A DNA stretch of 64,000 nucleotides from a bacterium 336/3 (GTDB taxonomy: Bacteria > Bacteroidota > Bacteroidia > Cytophagales > Thermonemataceae), in assembly GCA_001281695.1 (NCBI GenBank), contig LJIE01000001.1, positions 1,564,586 to 1,628,585 on the forward strand, read 5' to 3'. The first letter of the stretch is position 1. The number at the start of each line of letters is the position of its first letter. The notes beneath the pieces are model-generated. The model had not been told where the DNA came from and made no database searches. It saw nothing but the letters and a program-made list of their open reading frames with translations. Below, one piece after another: positions 10,767 through 32,551 of the stretch. A program made the position numbers and the translations under genes.

Positions 10767-11123
10767 ATGTCGGATGAATTTTTAGTACGTCAAGAAGCTC
10801 TCAAGAAAATGCTTATTCAAGCAGATAAGACTATGAAAAGTATGAGGGATAGATTATCACTGTATATCAAGTCTCCTAATGTAAAAAACTTTGAGGTTGA
10901 TAAGAGAGAAAAAGAGCTACAACATATAGAAAACTTGATTGCTGATACAGTCCTCTTTATCGAATCTACTACTGAAGAGATTACAAAAATGCAGAGTGAA
11001 ATATTTTTTTATAAAGAATGGGCTAAAGAGTTTCATAAGAATTGGGTAAGTGAAATACAGAGTACAATAGATATGACTAATATTTTCCAAGAATATCGAA
11101 AAAATGAACCAAATCATGGATGA
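10767..11123 (+). CDS. Small coiled-coil early phage protein, unknown function
   Basis: 118 aa, mostly charged helix with heptad-like spacing (about 1-85), no signal peptide or membrane segment. It lies 5 nt after the preceding gene and overlaps the primase/helicase-like gene by 20 nt, so it belongs to the early replication operon. No family recognised. Confidence 0.6.
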   Translation: MSDEFLVRQEALKKMLIQADKTMKSMRDRLSLYIKSPNVKNFEVDKREKELQHIENLIADTVLFIESTTEEITKMQSEIFFYKEWAKEFHKNWVSEIQSTIDMTNIFQEYRKNEPNHG

Positions 11124-13236
11124 GTTTAAAAAATTAACTGATAAATATAAAAATAGTCCTCAAAAACAACCTGATAAGGTTTTAAGCACTGATGATTTGA
11201 GTCTAGATGAACGTAAAGCTTTGATTAAGAAACTTGAAAAAGAACTTGGTAGCCTGATACCTGGTACACCTTCTTTCAAGGATAAGGAAAAAGAATTGAT
11301 AGAAGCGAAATCATTAATGCCAAATCAAAGGAGAGTTTCTAAAGAGAAATCAAAATCTCAAAAAATCATTTTTAGGGAGGATTTTAAGGAGGGGACAGAC
11401 CCAAGTTTTGAGGCAGAGCTTAGAAGAAAATTGCCTGAAGGTGTAGATGTAAAAGACTACATGAATTATGGTTTTTATGAGTTTAAAAACTGCTATTTCA
11501 TGTCTGAAAAGGAAGGCGTAGATGTTGTTATTAGCAATTTTACTATGAAAGTGAAATTTCTAATCAAGTCAAAAACTGAGCCTAAAAGACTTGTAGAAAT
11601 TAAAAATATGTATGGACACAAGGCTATGGTAGATATGAGTATTGAAACAATGGTTTCTTTATCAAAATTCTGCCAAGCTGTGGAGTCTGAAGGCAATTTC
11701 CTTTTTGAAGGAAAGGAATCACATCTTAAAAAAATCAAACGTAAACTTTTTATGGAAGAAAAAACATCAGAAGAAATCCGTTTTCTTGGATTTCAAAAGG
11801 AAGCTTCTGTTTATGCCTTCGCCAATGGGATATTTGATGGTGAGCGATTTCATGAAATAGATGAGTATGGTATTGTAGAGCATAAAGAAAGGAACATATA
11901 CATACCTGCATTATCAAAGATTAATCAGTATGATGATTTTTCGTATGAAAACGAACGAAAATTTGTCTATAAAAAGTCAAGCATTGACTTTCAGGAATGG
12001 GCGAAACTGTTTTACCAAACTTATCAGGAAAAGTCTATTATAGCTATCAGTTTCTATGTTGCATCAATTTTTAGAGATGTAATTTTTAGCCAAACAAGGT
12101 TTTTTCCAATACTCAATTTATTTGGTGCTCCTGGTACAGGTAAAACTACTATGGCAGCTTCTTTAATGTTTCTTTTTGGAGATGCTCAAGAGCCTTTTAT
12201 GCTTGGTGGAGCTGGTACACCAAAAGGATTTATGCGAAAGTTTGGGCAATTCTATAACTCATTGATCTGGTTAGATGAGTTTAAGAATAGTATTGATTTG
12301 AAAAAATTAGAATCTCTCAAAAACATCTATGATGGGGTTGGTTATGAAAAGGCTCTAATGACACAAGACAATAAAACCAAAACAACTCCTATTTACTCAG
12401 CTTGCCTTCTCTCTGGGGAAGAACTACCAACAGGCAATGAAGCTTTATTTAAAAGAGTCATTTTTATAGAATTTGAAACGGCTACTTTCAATGAGGTACA
12501 GAAAGAAGCTTATGGAAAGTTAGTTACAAATCAAATACAAGGAATTAGTAGCCTAACAACTGAAATTTTAAAGCATAGAGCTTTGTTTGTTGAACAATTT
12601 GCTGAAAAATTCAACAACTCTATTGATTATCTATTCAAAGAAACTAAGAAAGAAGGTGAGAATTTAGATGATAGGATTATAAAAAATTATGCCGTACTTC
12701 TTGCAACTCTTGACATAATATACCCACAAATCAAGTTGCATTTTACACTTGAGCAAGCGAAAAAGTATTTTGTAGATAGAATACTTTATCAATCTGAATT
12801 GATTAGCAGTAGTTCAAAAATTAGCAAATTCTGGGATATTGTTCAATTCCTTTATGAAACTAATCAAATTGTTCTTGACCAAGATTTCAAGGTAGTTGAT
12901 AATATTTTATACATCAGAATGTCTAAAATATTCCCTTTATACATGGATAGTCATGTAAGGCAATTTGGAGAAAGAGGATTAGATAAATCATCATTAACAA
13001 GATACTTAGAAAGAAGTAAAGGCTTTGATAGCTTTATCACTTCAACTTGGTTTGGAAAAGCCAACTCATCTGCTTACAAGTTTAATTTAGACAAGCTCCC
13101 CATCAGGCTTACATACATTCCTCCAGAAAAACATGAAGATACTGAAGAAGTAGAAAAGTATGAACCACCTACAACTATTCTGCCTATTCAAAAAAATGTA
13201 TTTGATGAGGATTCTCCTAAAAACGCACCTTTTTAA
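11104..13236 (+). CDS. Phage replication P-loop NTPase (DUF927/D5-like helicase or primase-helicase)
   Basis: 710 aa. The N-terminal third is charged and probably extended. A P-loop NTPase core follows with Walker A GAPGTGKTT (341-349), Walker B SLIWLDEF (Asp391, Glu392) and an arginine-finger-type segment near GNEALFKRVIFIEF. The C-terminal region resembles a winged helix. Spacing and flanks fit the DUF927 / phage D5-like superfamily 3 helicases that unwind DNA for phage replication. It is the largest early gene and is followed by the iteron cluster, consistent with an origin-acting helicase. No zinc-binding primase motif is visible. Confidence 0.72.
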   Translation: MNQIMDEFKKLTDKYKNSPQKQPDKVLSTDDLSLDERKALIKKLEKELGSLIPGTPSFKDKEKELIEAKSLMPNQRRVSKEKSKSQKIIFREDFKEGTDPSFEAELRRKLPEGVDVKDYMNYGFYEFKNCYFMSEKEGVDVVISNFTMKVKFLIKSKTEPKRLVEIKNMYGHKAMVDMSIETMVSLSKFCQAVESEGNFLFEGKESHLKKIKRKLFMEEKTSEEIRFLGFQKEASVYAFANGIFDGERFHEIDEYGIVEHKERNIYIPALSKINQYDDFSYENERKFVYKKSSIDFQEWAKLFYQTYQEKSIIAISFYVASIFRDVIFSQTRFFPILNLFGAPGTGKTTMAASLMFLFGDAQEPFMLGGAGTPKGFMRKFGQFYNSLIWLDEFKNSIDLKKLESLKNIYDGVGYEKALMTQDNKTKTTPIYSACLLSGEELPTGNEALFKRVIFIEFETATFNEVQKEAYGKLVTNQIQGISSLTTEILKHRALFVEQFAEKFNNSIDYLFKETKKEGENLDDRIIKNYAVLLATLDIIYPQIKLHFTLEQAKKYFVDRILYQSELISSSSKISKFWDIVQFLYETNQIVLDQDFKVVDNILYIRMSKIFPLYMDSHVRQFGERGLDKSSLTRYLERSKGFDSFITSTWFGKANSSAYKFNLDKLPIRLTYIPPEKHEDTEEVEKYEPPTTILPIQKNVFDEDSPKNAPF

Positions 13237-21890: not shown

Positions 21891-22571
21891 ATGGACGAAA
21901 TAAAAAAATTCCTGCAGAGTCCCAAAGACTACCAAACAGCTTGTGAGCTGTACAAGAAGTATGGAAAGAATTTGAATATCAAAAGGCTCATTGATAAAAG
22001 GAAGAATGAGAGCCTTTTGCCTACCATTGTTTTTGAGTTAAAAGTATTACTGGAGAAGGCGGGTGAGAAAACTATTACTGAAGAAGTAAAAGTGGTTGTT
22101 CATAATCCTGCTAAAGTTGATTATGAACCTATCACATTGCAGAAGAAAGCTGAAGGACTGGAAGAAATCTCAAGACAGCAACAACACTTTTATAATCAGG
22201 GAGCCAAGCTTTCCAATGCTCTTTCTCTGCTTGCTCAAACGGACCCACACAGCCAAGAGGCTAAAACTCTTGTTTCAGAGATTTTAGATTGCAAGAATCA
22301 ATATAATGAGCTTGCAGAAGTAAAAAAACAATTTCAGAAAACTGGTAAAATGCCTATAAAAGTTGAGAAACCTACTCAGGAAGTTGTTTATAAAAGTTTA
22401 TCCAAGGACGAGCTTCTTAAAAAACAAAAACTACTTCGTTCACAGGTTTCTAAAGCAAAAAGTAATGTTACAGCTAATCGGAACAATGAGGAAAAAATGT
22501 CTAAATACACCAGTAAACTACAATCCTTAGAAAAAGAACTTTTAATCGTAGATAATTTATTATGCAGTTAG
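21891..22571 (+). CDS. Coiled-coil phage protein of unknown function
   Basis: 226 aa, almost wholly helical and charged; heptad-like segments at about 85-115 and 165-220. Its end overlaps the ParB-like gene by 10 nt, placing it at the head of the DNA-modification-like block. No catalytic motif. Confidence 0.55.
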   Translation: MDEIKKFLQSPKDYQTACELYKKYGKNLNIKRLIDKRKNESLLPTIVFELKVLLEKAGEKTITEEVKVVVHNPAKVDYEPITLQKKAEGLEEISRQQQHFYNQGAKLSNALSLLAQTDPHSQEAKTLVSEILDCKNQYNELAEVKKQFQKTGKMPIKVEKPTQEVVYKSLSKDELLKKQKLLRSQVSKAKSNVTANRNNEEKMSKYTSKLQSLEKELLIVDNLLCS

Positions 22572-23185
22572 TTTGGAGTACAGAAAAGCGTAAGGTCAAT
22601 GATTTATTGCCTTATGAGAAAAACCCTCGTAAGATGTCTCCTGAAAAAATGAAAATGCTTCAGGATAGCTTACATAAATTTGGGTTGGTGGAAATACCTG
22701 CTATCAATTTAGACGGCACCCTCATAGCTGGGCATCAGAGATGCAAGGCTATGAAGTTTTTGGGTAGAGGTGAAGAGCTAATAGATGTGAGGGTACCTAA
22801 TCGTCAGCTCACAGAAACGGAGCTGAAGGAGTATAACATTGCCTCTAATTCAATTGATGGGGACTGGGTAGAAGAGATTTTGAGAGAAAGCTTTTCAGAT
22901 ATTGATTTAGCCTCTTTGGGCTTGGATTTAGACTTATCTGAATATAATGATTTATTAAAATCAGGTGAAGAGGAAAAGCCGAAGCCTGTATATGAGATAT
23001 TACCCAAGTTCACAGAGAAGCATACATCTTTTACTATTATTTGTGATAATGAGTTAGATGAAAACTTCATTAAGCATGTATTGGGCTTGGAAGCTGAAAA
23101 GAGCTTTAAGAATAATAATGTAGCTATTCCTTATGTACTCACTGCTAAAAAATTTATATTAGAATGGAACAAATTGAAATCATAA
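22562..23185 (+). CDS. ParB-like nuclease-fold domain protein
   Basis: 207 aa. Residues about 12-90 are a ParB N-terminal-type domain: NDLLPYEKNPRKM, then GLVEIPAINLDGTLIAGHQR (the GHQR/GHRR box) and VRVPNRQLTETE. Phage proteins of this kind often accompany DNA methylases and base-modification enzymes. The C-terminal region is acidic and not recognised. It overlaps the glycosyltransferase-like gene by 22 nt, so the two are probably made together. Confidence 0.78.
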   Translation: MQLVWSTEKRKVNDLLPYEKNPRKMSPEKMKMLQDSLHKFGLVEIPAINLDGTLIAGHQRCKAMKFLGRGEELIDVRVPNRQLTETELKEYNIASNSIDGDWVEEILRESFSDIDLASLGLDLDLSEYNDLLKSGEEEKPKPVYEILPKFTEKHTSFTIICDNELDENFIKHVLGLEAEKSFKNNNVAIPYVLTAKKFILEWNKLKS

Positions 23186-23907
23186 TTCCTTCACACAAAC
23201 GAGCTGATAAGGTTTCTACTACCAAGATAGTAGAAGGTTGTATTTTGTGTGTTCCTGAGAGTCAGGCAGACCAGTACAAAAAATTTAATCCTGGTATTGA
23301 AGTAGTCGCCCACCCAGAAGACATCAAAGGCTTGCCTCCAAAATTAGAATGGATTAGACGCAACTTTACCAATCCGTTCTTTATTGATGATGATGTAAAA
23401 GACTTTAGAAAGCTTTATGTAGAGAAAGGAGAAAAAGCACCTATTGATAGCCCTACCATTGTTCGTGAAATTATAGAAGTAACTGCTTGGACAGCTCGCA
23501 AGGTGGGAGCTTATTTGTATGGTTTTAATCATAGCCCTATGCCTGAAGCTTACTCAGGACATAGGCCTTTTGTGCTAAGTGGCTTTGTGATGGGCGGAGC
23601 TACTGGCTTGCTCAGTGGTTCAAAACTCTTTTGGAATACAGATATGAAGCTTGGAGGGGATTTCTGGATTAGCCTATTGAATGCCTACTATCATAGAAAG
23701 ATTTGGAAGGATATGCGTTATTGTTTTACTTTTAAGGACACTTTTGTAAACCCTGGTGGGCTTAGTGAGTTTCGAAATATTGAAGCTGAAAAAGAGAAGT
23801 ATGAAATACTCAAAGAATACTTTGGCGAGGCTATTCGTTTGAAAAACGACACAAACCTCGCCAAAAGAAAACATCCTTATATGACTACTTTGAATTTGCC
23901 TTTTTAA
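23164..23907 (+). CDS. GT-A-fold glycosyltransferase-like protein (possible DNA-base glycosyltransferase)
   Basis: 247 aa. It starts EIIIPSHKRADKVSTTK, continues CILCVPESQADQY and has the acidic FFIDDDV motif (Asp75-77), the DxD-type metal/sugar-nucleotide site of GT-A enzymes. The PSxxRAxxV...CVxESQ...Y pattern resembles the phage TET-associated glycosyltransferases described as modifying hydroxymethylated bases. No TET/JBP or hydroxymethylase gene is in the window, so the substrate is open. Its stop overlaps that of the convergent HNH gene by 3 nt. Confidence 0.62.
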   Translation: MEQIEIIIPSHKRADKVSTTKIVEGCILCVPESQADQYKKFNPGIEVVAHPEDIKGLPPKLEWIRRNFTNPFFIDDDVKDFRKLYVEKGEKAPIDSPTIVREIIEVTAWTARKVGAYLYGFNHSPMPEAYSGHRPFVLSGFVMGGATGLLSGSKLFWNTDMKLGGDFWISLLNAYYHRKIWKDMRYCFTFKDTFVNPGGLSEFRNIEAEKEKYEILKEYFGEAIRLKNDTNLAKRKHPYMTTLNLPF

Positions 23908-24563
23908 GCTTGATTATCATCAACCATAGAATTATACAAAGATTTTACACACAAATAGTATTCTTTATACTGTGAGACCTCTATATCTAATTCATCTTTT
24001 ATTGCTTGTTTTAGTATAGGATTTGTTTGTGATACATATCTATCTATAAGGTTGTGTATTACTTTTATTCTTTCTAAGCGTCTTTCCAAAAGATCTGGTC
24101 TATTCAATTTTAAAATCCTGATAGTCAAATCTCCCTTCGGATTAGATGGTTTATGAAAAATATAAGCCCCCAAAGCTATTATAAAATCTTCTGGGCTTTC
24201 GATGTATGGATTTATAAAAGGAAGATTGATGTCATACTCATCTCCTTTATTCATGTTACAAACTGGACAACTTAATCCTAAATTATTCCATTCATATGTT
24301 AGGCTTGGAAATTTATCTTTTGCTTTTGGTCGAATATGCTCTATATGCTCATGTGAAACATGTGCCACTACACTTTCACAATACATACATTTATTAAAAC
24401 ACTCCATTTTCAGTTGTACCTTTACTTCAGAATGATTATACCGATTGTAAACACCCTTGGGAATTTTTTTTCCATTACTAATATAATCTAATAATTCCGT
24501 TGTCCACGCTACTTTATTAGTTTGAAGTATATTAGGTTCTAAGCTTTTATTTATTCTGATCAT
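23904..24563 (-). CDS. Septu-like HNH endonuclease (PtuB-like)
   Basis: 219 aa. The HNH/zinc motif is clear: Cys59-x2-Cys62 (CMYCE), HEHIEHIRPKAK (His73-76), then YEWNNLGLSCPVCNMNKGD with Asn93/94 and Cys99-x2-Cys102. It follows an ATPase gene with a 17-nt overlap. ATPase plus HNH in this order is the Septu antiphage arrangement (PtuA senses, PtuB cuts nucleic acid). Both genes run against the phage structural genes, as expected for cargo expressed in the lysogen. Confidence 0.8.
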   Translation of the reverse strand: MIRINKSLEPNILQTNKVAWTTELLDYISNGKKIPKGVYNRYNHSEVKVQLKMECFNKCMYCESVVAHVSHEHIEHIRPKAKDKFPSLTYEWNNLGLSCPVCNMNKGDEYDINLPFINPYIESPEDFIIALGAYIFHKPSNPKGDLTIRILKLNRPDLLERRLERIKVIHNLIDRYVSQTNPILKQAIKDELDIEVSQYKEYYLCVKSLYNSMVDDNQA

Positions 24564-25791
24564 TGATTTTTGTAATAATTTTTTCCATTGTTAAAGGAAC
24601 TAGACTTTCTAAACCAAGCTCTTTCAAATCATTTCTCATTTGATGAAATATAGTAGAGGTTATTTCACTATTTGCATATTTATTAGTAATTTCTTCCAAA
24701 GACTTCTCGACCCAGACGGGCATAGTAAATGATACACCAAGAACCTCATCTAATATTTGATTCGCACTTCTTGCTTTATTAACTATATCTAATTTTTCGT
24801 TAAATATTCTTTTATCAGAATTGTATCTAAGTGCATAAACATTTGAATCCTTTACAGAACCTATGATAAGCGGGCTATGAGTTGATACTATAAATTGAAC
24901 GTTTGGAAACGCTTCTATCAAAGAAGGCAGAATTTCTCTTTGCATAGTTGCATGTAAATGATTCTCTACTTCATCTATTATAACCAATACATTTTCAGAC
25001 TTATTTTCAATAGATGTGAAAATGAGCCATACTAAATCAATAATAGCACTTATACCTCCAGAAACAGCATCAAGCATAAAATCTCCTGTGCTTGTTTCAA
25101 AAATAATTTCATAATTTTTGATAACTATTTTTGAGAAACCTAGCGATTTTGGCAATGTTATTCTCAAAATATCTTGAAACTCTAGAAAGTATTCTTTTAA
25201 TTCTTTATCTGATATTATAAAATCATTACCCGCACCTGAAATTGCCCAATTCAATAATGTTTCTTTTATAAAGTAATTTGTTGATTTACTCGAATGATCA
25301 TGATATAGTTTACTAATTATACTTGATGATGATGTTAAACGAGCTTCTGATTTTTTAATCTTTCTTGTTGAAATATTTGGGATATGTTGATAATAAAATA
25401 CTACTCTGTGAGATGGAATGTATGCTCCTGTTATTCTTTTTATGTTATCTAACTCTATATGATACACAGCACCTACTTCATAATCTGGAATTTTTATTTT
25501 TGAAAATTCTCCATCTTGATATTTTAAATATCCTATAATATTGCTTCGAACATTATCTATTAATTTTAAACTACGAGGAATATATTTAAAGCCTCCAGTT
25601 TCTTTATCAATTGATGGTACAGCTATTTCATCTTGAATGTTACCATATACTAACTTTCCTAATAAATTTAATATTGTTGTTTTACCAGAACCATTCGCTC
25701 CTGTTAATATGGTCAATTGTGGATGAAATTCTATTTCAATATCACTAAATTGCTTCCAATCATTTATTACTATCTTTTCTACAAAACTCAT
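24547..25791 (-). CDS. Septu-like AAA/ABC-type ATPase (PtuA-like)
   Basis: 414 aa from ATG 25791; an in-frame ATG at 25818 adds nine weak residues. SFVEKIVINDWKQFSDIEIEF is the start typical of SMC-like OLD/RecF-type ATPases. Walker A is GANGSGKTT (31-39), followed late by LVIIDEVENHLH (Walker B) and FIVSTHSPLI (His switch). It is cotranscribed with the HNH gene downstream, together forming a two-gene Septu-like defence cassette. Its own promoter would be in the 100 nt shared with a divergent leader. Confidence 0.82.
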   Translation of the reverse strand: MSFVEKIVINDWKQFSDIEIEFHPQLTILTGANGSGKTTILNLLGKLVYGNIQDEIAVPSIDKETGGFKYIPRSLKLIDNVRSNIIGYLKYQDGEFSKIKIPDYEVGAVYHIELDNIKRITGAYIPSHRVVFYYQHIPNISTRKIKKSEARLTSSSSIISKLYHDHSSKSTNYFIKETLLNWAISGAGNDFIISDKELKEYFLEFQDILRITLPKSLGFSKIVIKNYEIIFETSTGDFMLDAVSGGISAIIDLVWLIFTSIENKSENVLVIIDEVENHLHATMQREILPSLIEAFPNVQFIVSTHSPLIIGSVKDSNVYALRYNSDKRIFNEKLDIVNKARSANQILDEVLGVSFTMPVWVEKSLEEITNKYANSEITSTIFHQMRNDLKELGLESLVPLTMEKIITKINDQNK

Positions 25792-25828
25792 TTTATATAT
25801 AGATTTTATTATATGCAATATATAAAAA

Positions 25829-25901
25829 AATAATTGTACAAATGTTTTGGGTTCTAGTTTTTGGTGCAGACGATTGCATTACACTTTTAACCCTTACATC
25901 A
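25829..25901 (+). promoter_or_regulatory. Repeated phage leader element, copy 1
   Basis: Contains TGTACAAATGTTTTGG, GTGCAGACGATTGCATT and ACACTTTTAACCC, the same blocks as copies 2 and 3, but lacks the six bases TATCAA-type insert before ACACTTTT. It precedes the methylase-like ATG at 25902. Confidence 0.6.
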
Positions 25902-26684
25902 ATGAAGCAATCCATTGCATACAAGCACAAAAAAGAGTTATTCGACATATTCGATAAGCTCTCAAGAACCCAAGACAGACACAGAGTATTTGAAGATTTT
26001 ATAACCTGTGCCATTTGCTGTTATCATCGAACCAACCTTGTTACAAACCTTCATTTCAAAGATGAAGAAAATGAGGCTTTATACCAGCAAACCATCAAAG
26101 GCTATAAGAAAGAAGAGCTAAGATTGTTTGGTGAAGCTTTGGGGCATTTATCCCTTCAGATAGATAAACACCCCTACTCGGACCCGCTTGGAGAATATTA
26201 TGAAGAACATTTCTCCAATGAACGACTAGGGCAGTTTTTTACGCCTATGGAGGTTTGCAGGGCTATGGCAGGTATGATGATTGTAGACCTTGAAAGCCCT
26301 CCAGAAGAAAAAACAATTAATGACCCGTGCTGTGGCTCGGGTCGTTTGCTTTTAGCCTATGCTGAGTTAGCACCAAAAAACTATTTTTTCGCAAATGATA
26401 TAAGTTTAACGCTTGCCAAGTTATGCACCCTCAACTTTTTTATCAATGGACTTCAGGGAGAGGTTTGCTGGGGAGATTCGCTGAAGGTGGAGTATAAGAA
26501 GGTTTGGCGTATCAATATGCTTGGTGTAGGGATATTGCCTGTTCCTCCAGAACAAAGTATAGGGTTTTCCGTACAAGCCTCTCAATACCAAGAAAAGCCT
26601 TCTACTCAAGCCAAAAAAGTACCTATAAAAGTTCAACACTCCGAAACTAAACCAAATACCTCAGAACAATTAAAGTTGTTCTAA
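25902..26684 (+). CDS. N6-adenine DNA methylase-like protein lacking a visible NPPY motif
   Basis: 260 aa from ATG 25902 (an earlier ATG lies inside the leader). Type I-like methylase features: GQFFTPMEVCRAM, the SAM-binding NDPCCGSGRLLLA, FANDIS and CWGDSL. The catalytic [ND]PP[YF] expected next is absent; the sequence goes to a low-complexity tail. It may be catalytically dead, use another residue, or be only a SAM-binding protein. The C-terminus is EQLKLF, a good match to the sliding-clamp-binding motif QLxLF. A terminator follows. Confidence 0.72.
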   Translation: MKQSIAYKHKKELFDIFDKLSRTQDRHRVFEDFITCAICCYHRTNLVTNLHFKDEENEALYQQTIKGYKKEELRLFGEALGHLSLQIDKHPYSDPLGEYYEEHFSNERLGQFFTPMEVCRAMAGMMIVDLESPPEEKTINDPCCGSGRLLLAYAELAPKNYFFANDISLTLAKLCTLNFFINGLQGEVCWGDSLKVEYKKVWRINMLGVGILPVPPEQSIGFSVQASQYQEKPSTQAKKVPIKVQHSETKPNTSEQLKLF

Positions 26685-26691
26685 AAGCCTC

Positions 26692-26719
26692 AAAATAGCC
26701 CTCACTGAAGGGCTATTTT
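26692..26719 (+). terminator. Terminator after the methylase-like gene
   Basis: AAAATAGCCCT / AGGGCTATTTT, 11-bp stem, 6-nt loop, followed by further T. Confidence 0.85.
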
Positions 26720-26739
26720 TTTGCAAAAAAAACCTCAAA

Positions 26740-26820
26740 AATAATTGTGCAAATGTTTTGGCTTCTTGATAAACAAGCAGACGATTGCATTATCAATTAC
26801 ACTTTTAACCCCTTAAAATT
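26740..26820 (+). promoter_or_regulatory. Repeated phage leader element, copy 2
   Basis: TTGTGCAAATGTTTTGGCTT, a variable 13-nt segment able to form CTTG-ATAAA-CAAG, GCAGACGATTGCATT, then ATCAATTACACTTTTAACCC ending at the ATG of the next gene. The conserved TGCAA and TTGCA parts are complementary. Confidence 0.62.
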
Positions 26821-27135
26821 ATGGTAGCATTAAATTCACAAATTCACAAGAATAAAAAGCTCTATAAGCTTTTTGCTTGCCGAATTCAGGAAACCAAGAA
26901 GGCTTTAAGCCTCAAACAAATCAATTTCACCCATGTAGCCAAAAGGGTGATGAAAAGAGCTTGGAAAACTTACAAGAATGGAGTAGCTGAGTACATCAAA
27001 AAGAACTTTACGGATAAGAATTACTATGAGAGTTCTTTTGAGCTTCAGGACTATTTTAAACAATGCCTCCAGCTCGCATGGCTATCAGCTCGCAAAGAAT
27101 TACAAACCTTAAACCAAACCAAACTATTCGTATGA
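26821..27135 (+). CDS. Small basic phage protein with C-terminal clamp-like peptide
   Basis: 104 aa, helical and basic (LFACRIQETKKALSLKQ), no family recognised. It ends NQTKLFV, a QxxLF peptide also present at the ends of the genes before and after. It overlaps the next gene by 4 nt (ATGA). A DNA-associated role is plausible from charge and neighbours. Confidence 0.55.
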   Translation: MVALNSQIHKNKKLYKLFACRIQETKKALSLKQINFTHVAKRVMKRAWKTYKNGVAEYIKKNFTDKNYYESSFELQDYFKQCLQLAWLSARKELQTLNQTKLFV

Positions 27136-27317
27136 GCAAAGAAAGAAAAAAAGCTCTTAAAGCTCTTAAAACTTTAGAAGAGCAAAAACTTATCCTTGAG
27201 GTTCATAACAGCCTTGAGGAAGGTATCAACTTAAAAGTAAAGCGTTCAAACCAAAAAGGCTTTACGGATACACCTTTATTCAATCAAAATCAACAAACCG
27301 ATTTATTTACAAAATGA
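27132..27317 (+). CDS. Small phage protein with C-terminal clamp-like peptide
   Basis: 61 aa from the ATG that overlaps the previous stop; a longer frame from 27063 would overlap much more and is not used. A basic helical N-terminus (SKERKKALKALKTLEEQ) leads to a polar tail ending QQTDLFTK. It overlaps the next gene by 4 nt. Confidence 0.5.
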   Translation: MSKERKKALKALKTLEEQKLILEVHNSLEEGINLKVKRSNQKGFTDTPLFNQNQQTDLFTK

Positions 27318-27913
27318 GGCAATTAATTACAGAGCAGGGCTATGACTTTTTTGAGGTCAGCTCTGCCCTCCAAAAGAGCATCAGGAGGGGAAAAGAAGAT
27401 GATGCAATGTACTGGGCTGTTGAGTTGTATATCTCAAACTATGATGAGTATGTTTGGAAAAGGCTTAAAATCATCTCCAGTGAAGATATAGGATTGGCAG
27501 AGCCTAACCTACCTTCTAATATCTATGCTCTTTACGAGATGTACCAACAGCAAAAAAAGAACGATAAAACAGGTGGTAAAACTTCACACCGATTATTCTT
27601 AGCTCATGCTATTGTGATACTCTGTAGGGCTAAGAAAAGCCGTTTGATAGATCATTTCCAAATCTATCATTTCAGAACACACCATGTAGAACGCAAACCG
27701 ATTCCAGATTATGCCTTTGACAAACATACCACTACAGGTAAAAGGCATGGAAGAGGCTTTGAACATTTCTTTGAACATGGTGCAAAGCTGGAGAATGTAG
27801 GTGATGTAGCAGGTGAACAAGAATATCTTGAGTTGTGTAAGGATGTGTTGTATAGGAACCCTCCTCCCACACCCACCACCCAAGATGATGAACAAAAGAC
27901 TTTGTTTGATTAA
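27314..27913 (+). CDS. RarA/MgsA C-terminal domain-like phage protein
   Basis: 199 aa. SSALQKSIRRGKEDDAMYWAVELY followed by WKRLKIISSEDIGLAEP closely follows the C-terminal domain of RarA (MgsA), where SALxKSxRGSDxxAAxYW and RRLxxxAxEDIGLA are typical, but no AAA+ ATPase part is present. RarA acts at stalled replication forks, so this could be a stand-alone phage adaptor. The C-terminus is EQKTLFD, again a clamp-like QxxLF. A terminator follows. Confidence 0.72.
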   Translation: MRQLITEQGYDFFEVSSALQKSIRRGKEDDAMYWAVELYISNYDEYVWKRLKIISSEDIGLAEPNLPSNIYALYEMYQQQKKNDKTGGKTSHRLFLAHAIVILCRAKKSRLIDHFQIYHFRTHHVERKPIPDYAFDKHTTTGKRHGRGFEHFFEHGAKLENVGDVAGEQEYLELCKDVLYRNPPPTPTTQDDEQKTLFD

Positions 27914-27916
27914 AAC

Positions 27917-27950
27917 AAAAAGCCCCTACGCTAATGTATAGGGGCTTTTT
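27917..27950 (+). terminator. Terminator after the RarA-like gene
   Basis: AAAAAGCCCCTA / TAGGGGCTTTTT, 12-bp stem with 10-nt loop and T-run. Right after it comes TACACTTTTAACC (27951-27963), a fragment of the leader element, and a small AACCGC/GCGGTT hairpin. Confidence 0.85.
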
Positions 27951-28008
27951 TACACTTTTAACCGCCTTATATGCGGTTACACAAAAATAATCAAAAAAAA
28001 CTCAAAAA

Positions 28009-28087
28009 AAAATGTGCAAATGTTTTGGCTTTTAGCCAATGGTGCAGACGCTTGCATTATCAATTACACTTTTAACCCCTTAAAATC
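28009..28087 (+). promoter_or_regulatory. Repeated phage leader element, copy 3
   Basis: ATGTGCAAATGTTTTGGCTT, loop part forming the perfect hairpin TTGGCT-TTT-AGCCAA, GGTGCAGACGCTTGCATT, ATCAATTACACTTTTAACCC, ending at ATG 28088. Copies 2 and 3 are almost identical outside the central loop. Confidence 0.65.
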
Positions 28088-28738
28088 ATGGAAAACAAAA
28101 GAAAAAAATCAGACAGATTCGAGAATCAAGAGGCTTACATGCTTTCAGCTTCTGAGACGGCTAAGAAGGTGGCTCTCCAAAGAAAAATTAATGCAGTACA
28201 CAATTACTATGGTTTTCGTAATAAATTCTCAGGTTTTCAAGAACCTGAAAGAATAGAGGATATTTTAGATGAGGGTAAATTACACCTATTCTATCTAAAT
28301 CAATGCTCTTGCCCTCTTACCATAGCCAATGCCTTTATCAATGCTAAAAATGCTTTATACAATGATTATAGTACTTTTGGTATCATTGCTCAAAATATCT
28401 CAAAAACTACTCAGGAAAGCTTTGAGAGATGGTGTGATAAAAACCAATTATCTAAAGAAATTAAACGCAATTACATTTCTAAAGAGGGGTTTCCAATAGA
28501 TTCTCAAGCTCATGCCTTTACAGAGAATTTTGAGATTTTAATTACTGAAGAGGACATTGTAGATTTTATTTTACTACACCCACATGGAGCCGAGAGCTAC
28601 GAAAGATATATCAGATGCAATGAGTTATCAAATAAATTCAAAGAAATGGTAGGCTTTCCACTTAACTTTTATTTCGCAGGTGATTTACTCAAACTTATCT
28701 CAGAGAAGTATGAGGCTGAGTTAGAGTGTCCGTTTTAA
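28088..28738 (+). CDS. Hypothetical phage protein under the third leader element
   Basis: 216 aa, soluble, charged and largely helical. Segments such as CSCPLTIANAFINAKNAL and HPHGAESYERYIRC suggest a compact domain, not recognised. It has its own leader copy and ends at a perfect palindrome shared with the convergent NACHT gene. Unlike the four preceding genes it has no QxxLF tail (it ends ELECPF). Confidence 0.6.
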   Translation: MENKRKKSDRFENQEAYMLSASETAKKVALQRKINAVHNYYGFRNKFSGFQEPERIEDILDEGKLHLFYLNQCSCPLTIANAFINAKNALYNDYSTFGIIAQNISKTTQESFERWCDKNQLSKEIKRNYISKEGFPIDSQAHAFTENFEILITEEDIVDFILLHPHGAESYERYIRCNELSNKFKEMVGFPLNFYFAGDLLKLISEKYEAELECPF

Positions 28739-28776
28739 AACTTTACCCTAAGAGTTTAAACTCTTAGGGTAAAGTT
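28739..28776. terminator. 38-nt perfect palindrome between convergent genes
   Basis: AACTTTACCCTAAGAGTTT is followed immediately by its exact reverse complement with no spacer. It overlaps the NACHT stop codon and follows the phage gene stop at once, so it probably ends transcription from both sides. Confidence 0.75.
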
Positions 28777-30484
28777 ATACTAAGTTTATAATATCAAAAT
28801 CACCTTTTTCTTTATCTAAAACAAGTTGATTGACTTCATCTATCCATTTTTCTCCATTGTTTATTATGATGGAAGAGATTTGCTGAATATCTTGGATAGA
28901 CATTCTATACTCATAATTATCAAATTCTAATAATCCTAAATAAGTTCTCCTCATTGCTGTTCTTATATATTGCATCTCTTCAAAAGAAAATAAAGAAATA
29001 TTCATAAATTCATTAGGCACTAATAATGAGCTTAAATCTATTTGACACAGAACTTCATATTGTTTTTGAAAATCTTCTCTATCTATTTTCTTTAAATTTT
29101 CTATACATTTTATTAGTCTTGGTATAAGAATATATTTGCTTATAGATATATAATCTAGTTCTTTTAGAAGAACTATGAAATTTGCATTATCAATCATATA
29201 TGTAATGCTCTTTTCTATATTTAATTTTATTTTCGTTAAAACATCTTTTTTGTTTACTTCTGACAAGTTCTTTATATAATTAGCTGCAAAATATTCCTGC
29301 AAAGATCTATGTGGAAAAGTATAGTCTGTACCTTCCTTATTTAATATTCCTATGGCTATTTTTAGATCTTCAATTAGTTTTTGATTGTCAAATACAATTT
29401 TTCTGTTTTCTTTGATAACATTTAATTTACTTTCTATATAATCAGTTTGAAAGTAGAATTTCTCTTCAAAATAAGATATAAATGAAAATAACCTTAAAAT
29501 ATCTTCAAATTGTTCTTTTGATAGTTTTGATTGTTTTTCTCTTTGAAAAGATAGTTTTGATAAGCTATCATGAGTAGAATACAATGTATCAAAAAGTTGT
29601 TTATAAAAGTCACAGCTTTTTTGAGGTATTGCTGAATATGACTGATATGTTAATATGAACATTGATAATAGTAATGGATTTTTAAGAAAATTTCTATATG
29701 AAGAATCTTTTAAGTTTAACGCTTCTTTCTCGATTTTTTCAATCAACTCTTTTTCTTGTGATGGAATTTGCTTTTGTATAAATATAGATATTTCATCATT
29801 TTCAAGATCACAGATTGAGTAATTATGGAATAGAGGTAGAGTATCAAGATTTGTGTATGGTCTTGATGTTATTACATATTTATTAGATGCATATTTATTT
29901 ACAAATTGATCAATTTCATTAGTTATAGATTCCTTTTTACTATAGTTAATTTCATCATAGCCATCAAAGAGAAAAATAAAGTCTCCTGAACTTAGAATCC
30001 TATCTATAATCTCATTAGTAAATCCAAGTTGATGAAATAAAAATATATCTTCAAAAATATATTTAACAAAAGAGGCTTTTTCATTTAAATATCTAAGTTC
30101 AACTTTTATAGGAATTTTAAATTTTCTCTTGATACTATCTATAAAAAAATATTTCATTAAAGTACTTTTACCACTTCCTGCTGAACCTATAATAGTAATG
30201 TAATTTAGGTTTTTCAATAACTCTGATATATTTTCAGTGGAAATTCTTTTTCTTTCACTACCTATAAAACCATGTTTTTCAATATGTAGAGGAACATAAA
30301 ATTCATCTAATTTTATTGGTTCTGATCTATGTATGAAAGTTTTAGCAAAGAGATTTCTTTTATACTCATTGGTTTGGTACTCCAATAGTCTATTTTTTGC
30401 TAACTGTTTAAATTCAGTCCCTATGTTTTTTAATAAATTGTTTATAGGACTTTCTATTAGTTTTTTTAATTCTACTATTTCCAT
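28775..30484 (-). CDS. NACHT-domain NTPase, probable antiphage defence protein
   Basis: 569 aa. N-terminal helical region (1-95); NACHT core with Walker A GSAGSGKST (100-108), Walker B FIFLFDGYDE (about 169-178) and the TSRPY segment near 206; helical region with FPHRSLQEYFAA, seen in NLR-like NTPases; C-terminal about 80 residues perhaps a short sensor domain. No LRR or obvious toxic effector is visible, like the compact bacterial NACHT proteins reported to block phages. It opposes the phage genes and lies right before the terminase, a typical moron position. What it detects is unknown. Confidence 0.82.
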   Translation of the reverse strand: MEIVELKKLIESPINNLLKNIGTEFKQLAKNRLLEYQTNEYKRNLFAKTFIHRSEPIKLDEFYVPLHIEKHGFIGSERKRISTENISELLKNLNYITIIGSAGSGKSTLMKYFFIDSIKRKFKIPIKVELRYLNEKASFVKYIFEDIFLFHQLGFTNEIIDRILSSGDFIFLFDGYDEINYSKKESITNEIDQFVNKYASNKYVITSRPYTNLDTLPLFHNYSICDLENDEISIFIQKQIPSQEKELIEKIEKEALNLKDSSYRNFLKNPLLLSMFILTYQSYSAIPQKSCDFYKQLFDTLYSTHDSLSKLSFQREKQSKLSKEQFEDILRLFSFISYFEEKFYFQTDYIESKLNVIKENRKIVFDNQKLIEDLKIAIGILNKEGTDYTFPHRSLQEYFAANYIKNLSEVNKKDVLTKIKLNIEKSITYMIDNANFIVLLKELDYISISKYILIPRLIKCIENLKKIDREDFQKQYEVLCQIDLSSLLVPNEFMNISLFSFEEMQYIRTAMRRTYLGLLEFDNYEYRMSIQDIQQISSIIINNGEKWIDEVNQLVLDKEKGDFDIINLV

Positions 30485-30534
30485 ATTTATATTAATTAAT
30501 AGTTTAGTGTTTAGTATTCCAATATAACCAAACA

Positions 30535-30550
30535 GCCATTTCTGTCCTAA
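30535..30550 (+). promoter_or_regulatory. Late-leader motif, copy 3
   Basis: GCCATTTCTGTCCTAA, 14/16 match to copies 2 and 5, 41 nt before the terminase ATG. AAAATGAG/CTCATTTT (30550-30576) forms the following hairpin. Confidence 0.55.
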
Positions 30551-30591
30551 AAATGAGTGTTAAATTTTCTCATTTTGCCTAAAAAAACTCG

Positions 30592-31119
30592 ATGTTTGAG
30601 AAAAAAGGTGATAGATTAGATAAATACAGGGCTTATCTAATCAAAGGCAAAGGTTTAAGTGAAAAATCCCTTCAAATGCTTGAAAGGATGAATTTTACCA
30701 ATTCTCTTCTTTGTGAGGGCTATGCAAGCTCTAAAATCATTCCAGTAATTCAAAAGAAATTTGATTTGAGCCAAAGGCAGGCTTATCAATTACTTTCTGA
30801 TACTATACAACTCTTTGGGGATGTGAGTCAAGCCTCTAAAGAAGGCAGAAGGTACATTGTTGCTGAGAACTTGCTTAGATTGGGTAAGAAAGCAGAACAA
30901 GAAGGAGATTTCATTACTGCCCAGAGCTGCTTTGATAAGTATGCTAAACTCTATGGCTTATACGATTCTACAGAAATCAACATTGATTCTAAAATGTGGA
31001 TGACACCAAGAGAAATTATATTTAGTGATGATATTAGCATTCTCAAGGGCAAAACAGAAGATATAGAGCATGAAATAGTACCTACTAACATTTTGGAGCA
31101 TGAAAGTGTACTTAAATAG
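30592..31119 (+). CDS. Terminase small subunit (probable)
   Basis: 175 aa, helical. It lies just upstream of the large terminase gene with a 20-nt overlap. The central segment SSKIIPVIQKKFDLSQRQAYQLL has helix-turn-helix character as in DNA-recognising TerS proteins; the remainder is likely oligomerisation helix. It would recognise phage DNA for packaging. Confidence 0.72.
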   Translation: MFEKKGDRLDKYRAYLIKGKGLSEKSLQMLERMNFTNSLLCEGYASSKIIPVIQKKFDLSQRQAYQLLSDTIQLFGDVSQASKEGRRYIVAENLLRLGKKAEQEGDFITAQSCFDKYAKLYGLYDSTEINIDSKMWMTPREIIFSDDISILKGKTEDIEHEIVPTNILEHESVLK

Positions 31120-32551
31120 AAAACAAAGAAGGTTTTTAGAGGCTCGTCAAAGAAGAAAAACATTTGTAGCTGGCAGAGCTACAGGAAAAACAAAAGCTTT
31201 AGGATTTACCAAATTTCAATGTTTTAACTACATGCCTAAAGGTGTAGGACTGATAGCAGGGCTTACCTATGGACAAATTCTTAATAATGTTATTCCTGAA
31301 TGTATTGATGCTTGGAATAGTTGTGGTTTGAAAGAATATGATCCTGAAACAGGAATAGGGCATTATGTAATTGGTAGAAAGCCTCCACGACATTTTGAAT
31401 TGCCCTACAGACAGCCCAGAAAATACACCAATGTTATTTCTTTTATCAATGGATATGCTACTGTATTAGGTAGCTTGGATATTGCGGATACGCTTAGGGG
31501 TGGCTCTTATGATGATTTGCAGGTAGATGAATCAGCTCTTGTCAAGCAGGATGATTTTAATAAAATCCTTGTACCCATGATTAGAGGCAATTTGTATAGA
31601 AACTTTGCCAAATATCCTGTTCATCACTCTATCTGTGATTTTACTTCTATGCCCTGGTTACAGTCTGGCTTTTGGGTGTTTGAGACTGAGGAGCTGGCAA
31701 AAGAGAATCCTGATGAGTATTTTTATTTGGAGGCAAAAAGTATAGACAACATAGAGGTATTGGGTGCTAAATGGTTTGAGCAACAGAAGAAAATCCTAAG
31801 CCCTTTAGAGTATGCTGTAGAGATAGATAATAAAAGGCTCAAGAAACTGCCTAATACCTTTTATCCCTCATTCAATGAAAATATCCACACAGATTTTAAT
31901 ACCTACGGATACAATTATACAGATGCTGGTATATTAGTACAAGGGCATAGGGATTATAGCCCTAATAAGCCTATTGATGTTTCGTTTGACTTCAACGCCA
32001 ACTTTAACTCTATGATTATTGCTCAAGAGAATGGCAGTGAGTACAGGATTATAGATGAGCTATACTTATCAGACTATCAGACCATAGATAAACTGGTAGA
32101 GGATTTCTGTTTGAAATACCCTAACCATCATAGCAAGTACAAGCTCATCAATATCTATGGGGATAGGAATGGTAACAACAGACAGGCAAACAGTGAGCTT
32201 ACATTCTATGAACAGATTATACAAGGCTTTGCTAAATACGGTTGGGCTTGTACCAACCATGTTACAGGCTTAGACCCAGACCATAAAACAAAACACTTCT
32301 TTATCAATAACCTTCTTGCAGGCAAGGCAACACACCTACCTAAGATTATCATCAATGCCAACACTTGTAAGTATTTGATTATCTCTATTGAGAACTCACC
32401 TATTACTGGAGAGTTCAAGAAGGACAAGTCTAGTGAGAAACAGAACATAGACCAGAGGTATGCAACACACTTGTCTGATTGTTTTGATAATCTAGTCTTT
32501 AGAAAGTTTGGTGGTGAAGTGTATCAGGTTCAAGAAATTTCCATTTTCTAA
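31100..32551 (+). CDS. Terminase large subunit (TerL)
   Basis: 483 aa. N-terminal ATPase: KTFVAGRATGKT (Walker A, 25-31), then GSYDDLQVDESAL (Walker B with the catalytic Glu). C-terminal nuclease: IDVSFDFNANFNSMIIAQ with metal-binding Asp residues, then INIYGDRNG, and a third acidic cluster near DQRYATHLSDC. This is the packaging motor and headful/site nuclease. It is preceded by TerS and followed by the portal block. Confidence 0.88.
   Translation: MKVYLNRKQRRFLEARQRRKTFVAGRATGKTKALGFTKFQCFNYMPKGVGLIAGLTYGQILNNVIPECIDAWNSCGLKEYDPETGIGHYVIGRKPPRHFELPYRQPRKYTNVISFINGYATVLGSLDIADTLRGGSYDDLQVDESALVKQDDFNKILVPMIRGNLYRNFAKYPVHHSICDFTSMPWLQSGFWVFETEELAKENPDEYFYLEAKSIDNIEVLGAKWFEQQKKILSPLEYAVEIDNKRLKKLPNTFYPSFNENIHTDFNTYGYNYTDAGILVQGHRDYSPNKPIDVSFDFNANFNSMIIAQENGSEYRIIDELYLSDYQTIDKLVEDFCLKYPNHHSKYKLINIYGDRNGNNRQANSELTFYEQIIQGFAKYGWACTNHVTGLDPDHKTKHFFINNLLAGKATHLPKIIINANTCKYLIISIENSPITGEFKKDKSSEKQNIDQRYATHLSDCFDNLVFRKFGGEVYQVQEISIF

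Follow-up and report, generated by a model that had tools for sequence, protein, structure and literature searches.

The 64,000-nucleotide stretch of the genome of bacterium 336/3 analysed here (contig LJIE01000001.1, positions 1,564,586 to 1,628,585; "the window") carries a prophage that encodes a phage integrase and an S24-type repressor. In this prophage, four unrelated proteins encoded by neighbouring genes end in short peptides resembling those through which bacterial proteins bind the sliding clamp DnaN, and a fifth protein belongs to a family with a C-terminal tip like that of the single-stranded DNA-binding protein (SSB). Comparison of their sequences supports well that the four tailed proteins dock on the host DnaN. 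The genes concerned are the following:

25902..26684, forward strand: methyltransferase-like (MTase-like) protein of 260 amino acids, with an HsdM-type N-terminal part and S-adenosylmethionine (SAM)-binding half, a linker and a terminal QLKLF
26821..27135, forward strand: P2, a small protein with an AW...AW core, ending in QTKLFV and matched by the hidden Markov model (HMM) of its family
27132..27317, forward strand: P3, 61 amino acids, with two motifs, DTPLF (27267-27281) and QTDLF (27294-27308)
27314..27913, forward strand: RarA-C-like protein, a stand-alone RarA C-terminal (MgsA_C) protein of 199 amino acids (Pfam MgsA_C, 1.9e-11), ending in QKTLFD
28088..28738, forward strand: P227, a helical protein ending in ECPF, from a family with an SSB-like PF tip

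The four peptides were located at the very ends of their open reading frames (ORFs). QLKLF (26667-26681) constituted the final five residues of the MTase-like protein, with no residue behind it; QTKLF (27115-27129) lay one residue and QTDLF two residues short of the C-terminus of P2 and P3, respectively, and QKTLF (27893-27907) was one residue short of that of the RarA-C-like protein. This agrees fully with the preliminary description of the window, which had reported four QxxLF endings at 0-2 residues from the C-termini of unrelated proteins. The MTase-like protein matched Pfam N6_Mtase (1.9e-11) and the RarA-C-like protein MgsA_C, and P2 and P3 matched no family above the cut-off; the P2, P3 and RarA-C-like genes were coupled by ATGA overlaps. 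In the accessible part of PMC11139829, the clamp motif is defined as Q-aliphatic-x-[LM]-[FL], position 2 is described as tolerant, QLxLF is named as the form of highest affinity and loss of the glutamine is said to lower affinity. The strict definition fitted QLKLF only, whereas QTKLF, QTDLF and QKTLF matched just Q..LF, with threonine, threonine and lysine at position 2.

Endings of this type were rare in the host. None of the 353 host ORFs of at least 90 amino acids, sampled from the host genome in 20 stretches of 20 kb, finished in Q..LF followed by up to two further residues, and from the composition of the tails about 0.0008 Q..LF endings were expected per protein. In the prophage such an ending was present in 3 of 56 non-overlapping ORFs, with the size limit set lower than for the host, at 60 amino acids or more, and additionally in the overlapping P3, which fell outside that set. 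These gene calls were greedily chosen ORFs and not gene predictions, many of them possibly false genes, which lowers the background rate.

Relatives were collected by profile scans of viral contigs (the best 80 of 515 MTase-like loci, and 48 RarA-C-like loci) and of genome contigs (the best 80 of 479 RarA-C loci). The family HMMs had first been seeded with the window proteins and, when rebuilt without them, still found the window genes, that for the MTase-like protein at 3e-37. For the tail counts in the operon, 27 loci were dereplicated, proteins sharing the same last 40 residues being counted once; P227 fragments shorter than 100 amino acids were skipped (shorter than 90 in the counts over all loci), and four copies of the window prophage (L009, L011, L012, L023) were left out. 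Under these conditions Q..[LMI][FL] ended 39 of the 72 MTase-like, P2, P3 and RarA-C proteins taken together vs. 1 of the 330 other ORFs of the same loci, where LF near the end occurred in 10.

The MTase-like proteins displayed the most regular tails. All 20 of those in operon loci ended in Q[LM]x[LF][FL]; 17 fitted Q..[LMI][FL] and the remaining three ended in QLSFL, QLSFL and QLSFF. QLSLF, QLTLF or QMSLF closed many of the homologues. Over all loci, exact QLxLF with at most two residues behind it was found in 30 of 93 MTase-like proteins vs. none of 2216 other ORFs, and Q..LF in 37 of 93 vs. 3 of 2216. The tail was retained at 23-50% identity to the window protein, behind linkers varying in length and sequence, as expected if the last residues alone matter, and appeared also in phages of human faecal origin and in those of Faecalibacterium (L014, L020, L016). 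On a tree of 46 cluster representatives the tail label changed 10 times, whereas shuffled labels needed 15.7 changes and fell as low in 1 of 500 cases; the label is thus clustered on the tree, yet was gained or lost several times. The count of 10 is probably overstated, because QLSFL, QLSFF and QLTFF were scored as no tail. The structural model of the window protein reached a mean predicted local distance difference test score (pLDDT) of 86.2, with values below 50 for residues 255-260 and a mean of 46 over the last ten residues. The tail carrying the motif, the only clamp-type tail modelled, is therefore disordered in the predicted structure.

An HMM based on four P2 sequences from related operons, with the window excluded, found P2 at 2.5e-05 among the 286 ORFs of the window; BLAST by itself found no relative of it, tblastn in phages gave no match, and there were only weak Phage_Gp111 and AcrIIA3-like matches. 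P3 was detected at 2.7e-10 with an HMM built in the same way, and by BLAST at 1.2e-06 to locus L106. The P3 homologues kept both Q..LF (16 of 16) and the second motif, D.PLF (16 of 16). Q..[LMI][FL] was present in 4 of 12 dereplicated P2 proteins of operon loci. In the eight distinct operon loci lacking P3, a P2-like frame occurred in six (L105, L108, L134, L175, L178, L184) and carried the motif in all six, with the endings QVSLF, QVTLF, QIGLF or QIPIF, whereas in the nine operons where a profile-found P2 stands beside P3 the motif was missing in eight, the window being the exception. Judged from these sequences, the clamp motif has moved between the neighbouring genes P2 and P3, which argues that the motif itself is selected.

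The RarA-C-like protein was found at 2e-82 among the window ORFs by an HMM built without the window, and its solved relatives by profile included RarA (3pvs). It possesses the MgsA_C domain of the RarA ATPase and lacks the N-terminal AAA+ part, MgsA_C alone being above the cut-off in this ORF of 199 amino acids. In its operon homologues LF was placed at most six residues from the end in 22 of 24 cases. [LMI]F was present in the last 15 residues of 44 of 56 viral or prophage RarA-C proteins vs. 4 of 66 at other genome loci, whereas a WQ-type end was found in 29 of these 66 and in one of the viral or prophage proteins. Scanning genome contigs with the RarA-C protein as single query gave no relatives. 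ORFs of MgsA_C type, of approximately 200-300 amino acids, occurred in many other genomes (Chloroflexi, Firmicutes, Bathyarchaeota; L180, L185, L188-L252); a Walker A pattern was found inside or within 1.5 kb upstream of none of the 66, so that these too may be stand-alone. In the host genome PF12002 detected only the phage gene and PF16193 gave one match below the cut-off. A role of the phage protein as decoy for the host's own RarA was rejected, since the host seemingly has no RarA to decoy.

P227 was found at 3.5e-35 among the window ORFs by an HMM of nine relatives built without the window. Its model (mean pLDDT 80, tail residues 206-216 below 50) consisted of 11 helices, with no strand of three or more residues. 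No Pfam family was matched above the cut-off, no solved relative was found by sequence and there was no match to SSB; Foldseek returned 35 matches, none at an E-value of 0.001 or better, and VIA-align 54 of 339 chains with Z of at least 2, none reaching 5. The homologues ended in xPF in 21 of 23 cases, most of them with acidic residues before it (DDVPF, DDLPF, EDVPF, EEVPF, but also ILPF and IAVPF); the window copy ends in ECPF and the host SSB in DDLPF. The family therefore has the acidic-PF tip of SSB, and the OB-fold domain that binds single-stranded DNA was not found in P227. PF endings were absent from the 353 host ORFs but present in 15 of the 330 other ORFs of operon loci, and the glycosyltransferase homologues had an LPF ending or a close variant of it, so the PF tip by itself carries less weight than the clamp motif. 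Another PF end preceded by acidic residues, DEDSPKNAPF, was observed in a primase-like prophage protein (11104-13236).

The preliminary description had suggested that the set might methylate replicating phage DNA. The MTase-like window protein matched phrog_5696 (5.8e-46), a family of unknown function, and its match to N6_Mtase covered profile positions 6-118 of 311. PDB profile matches were type I methylase subunits, including that of EcoR124II M (4.2e-18), and VIA-align of the model against BsaXI (8w2p) gave a Z of 11.5, with a root mean square deviation of 4.8 over 219 residues. The SAM-site residues G145 and D166 were invariant in 30 of 30 aligned family members and 57 of 100 fitted a stricter pattern for motif I; motif I and the SAM-binding fold of HsdM-type N6-adenine methyltransferases were thus present. 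QFFTP appeared in 100 of 100 sequences, which follows from the construction of the scan pattern. In HsdM-type enzymes, the catalytic motif IV, [NDS]PP[FYW], is expected after motif I. A pattern [NDST]PP[YFWH] was found in 3 of 100 MTase-like sequences, none of them plausibly placed: TPPH within QFFTPPH (L013, L037) and NPPF at tail residue 252 of 266 (L102). The two best PDB alignments displayed end shortly past a GDSL-like segment, and the place of motif IV would presumably be beyond the end of both. An active DNA methylase was rejected, given the missing NPP[FYW]-type motif IV, and the suggested methylation is doubtful and lacks support in the form proposed, the likeness to HsdM running through the SAM-binding half. 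To judge from its sequence, the protein is probably not an adenine methylase; it could be a pseudoenzyme that binds SAM, or have a different substrate.

As for the presumed partner, the host genome gave one DnaN match, of 374 amino acids (L171, 1465-2589, minus strand), which has a close relative in the solved sliding clamp 8dt6 (E 2.5e-96). The alignment presented TDGNRL and RFPDY at the presumed pocket residues Thr172-Leu177 and Pro242, with Asn replacing His175 (residue list from the accessible part of PMC11139829). No DinB was found in the host by Pfam IMS, which gave matches in 11 of 14 control genomes. Among the part of the prophage genes run against libraries there was a primase-like protein, and no phage polymerase or clamp. 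We infer that the phage relies on the host replisome.

The tailed genes form part of a longer module, which comprises in the window these further features:

22562..23185, forward strand: ParB-like protein at the start of the module (phrog_620, 4.2e-25)
23164..23907, forward strand: TET-associated-type glycosyltransferase, second gene of the module (Pfam TAGT 1e-15; phrog_842 2e-22)
23904..25818, reverse strand: Septu system (PtuA, PtuB) inside the module (PADLOC PtuB 8.4e-77, PtuA 2.9e-155)
25815..25913, forward strand: leader repeat copy 1, ahead of the MTase-like gene
26726..26824, forward strand: leader repeat copy 2, ahead of the P2, P3 and RarA-C-like genes
27993..28091, forward strand: leader repeat copy 3, ahead of P227
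28775..30484, reverse strand: NACHT protein with SNaCT9 C-terminus inside the module (Pfam SNaCT9 3e-35, NACHT 1.2e-07)
30592..31119, forward strand: terminase small subunit (terS), assigned by position only; relative before terL in 13 of 48 viral RarA-C loci (blastp, copies unmerged)
31100..32551, forward strand: terminase large subunit (terL), a blastp relative of L104 5532, which is itself phrog_2 terminase large subunit (8.8e-18)

The usual order of the operon was ParB-like, glycosyltransferase, P227, MTase-like, P2, P3, SymE-like, RarA-C, terS and terL, members being missing in places and RarA-C coming first in Hymenobacter. In the window variant P227 follows RarA-C, two defence loci are inserted on the minus strand, and no SymE-like gene was found among the 286 ORFs by an HMM built without the window. 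Genome operons with the MTase-like gene were found in Spirosoma (two), Hymenobacter, Fibrella, Arundinibacter (two), Emticicia, Larkinella, Persicitalea, Arsenicibacter and a strain named Cellulophaga; Lacihabitans had an operon without this gene, and Runella and Dyadobacter had pieces. Most genera carrying the operon in genome contigs belong to Cytophagales. Blastp relatives were present in 28 of 48 viral RarA-C loci for the ParB-like protein and in 32 of 48 for the glycosyltransferase (copies unmerged in both counts), and in Microbacterium phage ClearAsMud a ParB-like protein, a glycosyltransferase and an "AAA-ATPase" (RarA-C) are annotated within four genes. These three, the glycosyltransferase being of TAGT type and RarA-C stand-alone, recurred together also where no MTase-like gene was found (L103-L150), and look like a DNA-handling trio of their own. 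The terS candidate had no Pfam match, and for the window terL protein itself there was nothing in Pfam and only phrog_15503 at 0.065; a relative of this terL was found within approximately 4 kb in 47 of 83 MTase-like loci, tailed and tailless (copies unmerged).

In the Septu locus the PtuA ATPase adjoins the HNH protein PtuB, as is proper to this system, and the NACHT-SNaCT9 gene gave no PADLOC match; the gaps that both occupy appear as if they were insertion sites for defence genes. The three copies of the leader repeat were all the matches in the host genome, each of them preceding one transcription unit and containing a short frame, MFW[LV]L...AD[DA]CI, and the exact 12-mer of its core was found, outside copies of this prophage, once in 257 loci (L246). 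No clear signal was obtained from RNA folding of the repeat (z of -1.91, -1.25 and -0.34), from Rfam over 22000-31200 (no match at gathering scores) or from a scan for sigma-70-type promoters (8 found, 7.7 expected).

All these observations taken together make it likely, on the sequence comparisons, that the genes make up a single phage module with products that dock on the host replisome, on the clamp via their tails and on SSB partners via P227, and act on new phage DNA. The MTase-like protein, P2 or P3, and the RarA-C-like protein would bind the peptide pocket of the host DnaN via motifs on flexible C-terminal tails, and P227 would probably dock on proteins that recognise the SSB C-terminal tip. 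Factors held at the fork in this way could act on newly replicated phage DNA before packaging; with the ParB-like and glycosyltransferase partners, they would most likely mark, protect or process it. Such an action is favoured because ParB-like, glycosyltransferase, MTase-like and RarA-like genes are joined ahead of the terminase. Any purpose of clamp docking, whether it serves to handle new DNA, to link replication with late transcription or with packaging, or to take over the host, has little support. The proposal in the preliminary description of a set of phage factors riding on the host clamp is sustained at the level of sequence by motifs that are conserved in divergent homologues, move between genes and are rare elsewhere, and by the modelled disorder of the MTase-like tail.

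Several points weigh against this reading. At position 2, three of the four window motifs depart from the consensus, and the operon RarA-C-like homologues are mostly without the glutamine, the Q-motif being present in 2 of 24. The check for homologues lacking the motif, named in the preliminary description, turned out mixed though largely in favour: the tail was near-universal in the operon, but the wider MTase-like family was tailed in only 42 of 93 members and tailless in 51, the tailless groups including that of Flavobacterium phage laban. As regards P2, the frames of L105, L108 and L175 were chosen visually, and the L105 frame seems to be split; moreover, no P2 was found in two of the eight loci without P3 (L174, L249) nor in 7 of the 16 with P3. 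Relatedness among the sequences means that the Fisher values for the operon counts overstate independence. Finally, the function assigned to the module draws on gene neighbourhood alone.

Other explanations were considered. The tails could belong to a replication-coupled switch of late transcription or packaging on the host clamp, activating terminase and structural genes or delivering the terminase on no DNA but that being replicated. The position of the operon directly upstream of terS-terL in related phages and the frequent proximity of a terL relative to MTase-like loci are in line with such a switch, as are gp55 and gp33 of phage T4, whose C-terminal clamp epitopes, in the accessible text of PMC2988020, are short and hydrophobic-acidic, with a linker carrying that of gp55. 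We regard the switch as a live alternative, but an unlikely one: the operon proteins run showed no recognisable sigma-like or RNA polymerase-binding domain and, in a Faecalibacterium phage, the tailed MTase-like gene is situated among replication genes.

A takeover of the host, in which the small proteins, chiefly the two-motif P3, would fill the DnaN pocket and so keep out the host's polymerase or repair partners, is likewise a live alternative but seems quite unlikely. P3 is indeed short and keeps both of its motifs in all homologues, and inhibition of the clamp by a phage is known from Twort Gp168, though via the DNA channel (accessible part of PMC11139829). Nevertheless, larger folded proteins share the tails, which would be needless for a simple inhibitor, the genes sit with the terminase, and the want of a polymerase or clamp among the phage genes run means that the phage probably needs the host clamp. 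Very unlikely, too, is that the tails bind a target other than the clamp, for instance a protease or a phage partner, and merely resemble clamp motifs. The off-consensus window peptides and the RarA-C tails without glutamine would fit such a target, and P227 and the glycosyltransferase have conserved ends of another type; against it, many MTase-like tails are QLSLF or QLTLF, that is, the QLxLF form of highest affinity, found in none of 2216 other ORFs. Chance endings in an AT-rich phage were rejected as hardly credible: the motif is short and 10 of 2216 other ORFs have a weak match to Q..[LMIF][FL] at their end, but its absence from the host ORFs sampled, its conservation in relatives and its rarity in other ORFs of the same loci speak otherwise, and chance could remain only for the unusual tail of the window P2.

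If docking of the module on the host replisome is true, temperate phages place a whole gene set, and not one protein, on the host clamp, and tests become available for families of unknown function, namely the MTase-like phrog_5696, the RarA-C-like phrog_16866, and P227 and P3, the latter two without a confident family. That the motif moved between P2 and P3 would be natural evidence for selection of clamp docking itself. A more far-reaching picture, possible if on balance doubtful, is that of a replisome-docking operon present in many Bacteroidota phages, whose unrelated proteins ride on the host clamp and the SSB-partner network as on a mobile platform, which would confine marking, late expression or packaging to phage DNA under replication. 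The operon would then be the host-clamp equivalent of the T4 gp33/gp55/gp45 logic, and its new clamp clients would be a pseudo-methyltransferase that binds SAM and a stand-alone RarA collar domain. No recognisable description of the operon, or of clamp motifs in these families, was met in open-licence papers, most subscription papers lying outside this literature. Clamp motifs on proteins of mobile elements are already known; a multi-protein, clamp-tailed phage operon was not met there.

With respect to known systems, the MTase-like protein shares QFFTP, motif I and the fold of the SAM-binding half with HsdM/N6_Mtase, from which it differs by its 260 amino acids, its clamp-type tail and the absence of an NPP[FYW] motif IV. 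The RarA-C-like protein has the MgsA_C domain in common with RarA/MgsA, whereas it is a stand-alone protein of 199 amino acids without the AAA+ part and with an LF tail. The PF tip of the P227 family, often acidic, resembles the DDLPF of the host SSB, although P227 is modelled as helical and has no Pfam family above the cut-off. Like Twort Gp168, the tailed products would be phage proteins acting on the host clamp, but Gp168 binds the DNA channel and not the peptide pocket (accessible part of PMC11139829). T4 gp33 and gp55 are also phage proteins with C-terminal clamp epitopes, interchangeable ones according to the accessible text of PMC2988020; T4, however, has its own clamp, gp45, whereas the window operon is without a recognised sigma or flap-binding domain and its motif is of the bacterial beta type. 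The closest likeness in the peptide itself is to bacterial clamp-motif proteins such as Pol II, Pol IV, Hda and insertion sequence (IS) transposases, with a short QLxLF-type peptide, often C-terminal (accessible parts of PMC4549789 and PMC11139829), the IS transposases being a case of mobile elements that use the motif on the host clamp (PMC4549789). The window operon differs from these in that several unrelated proteins of one phage operon are tailed together, beside a protein with an SSB-like tip.

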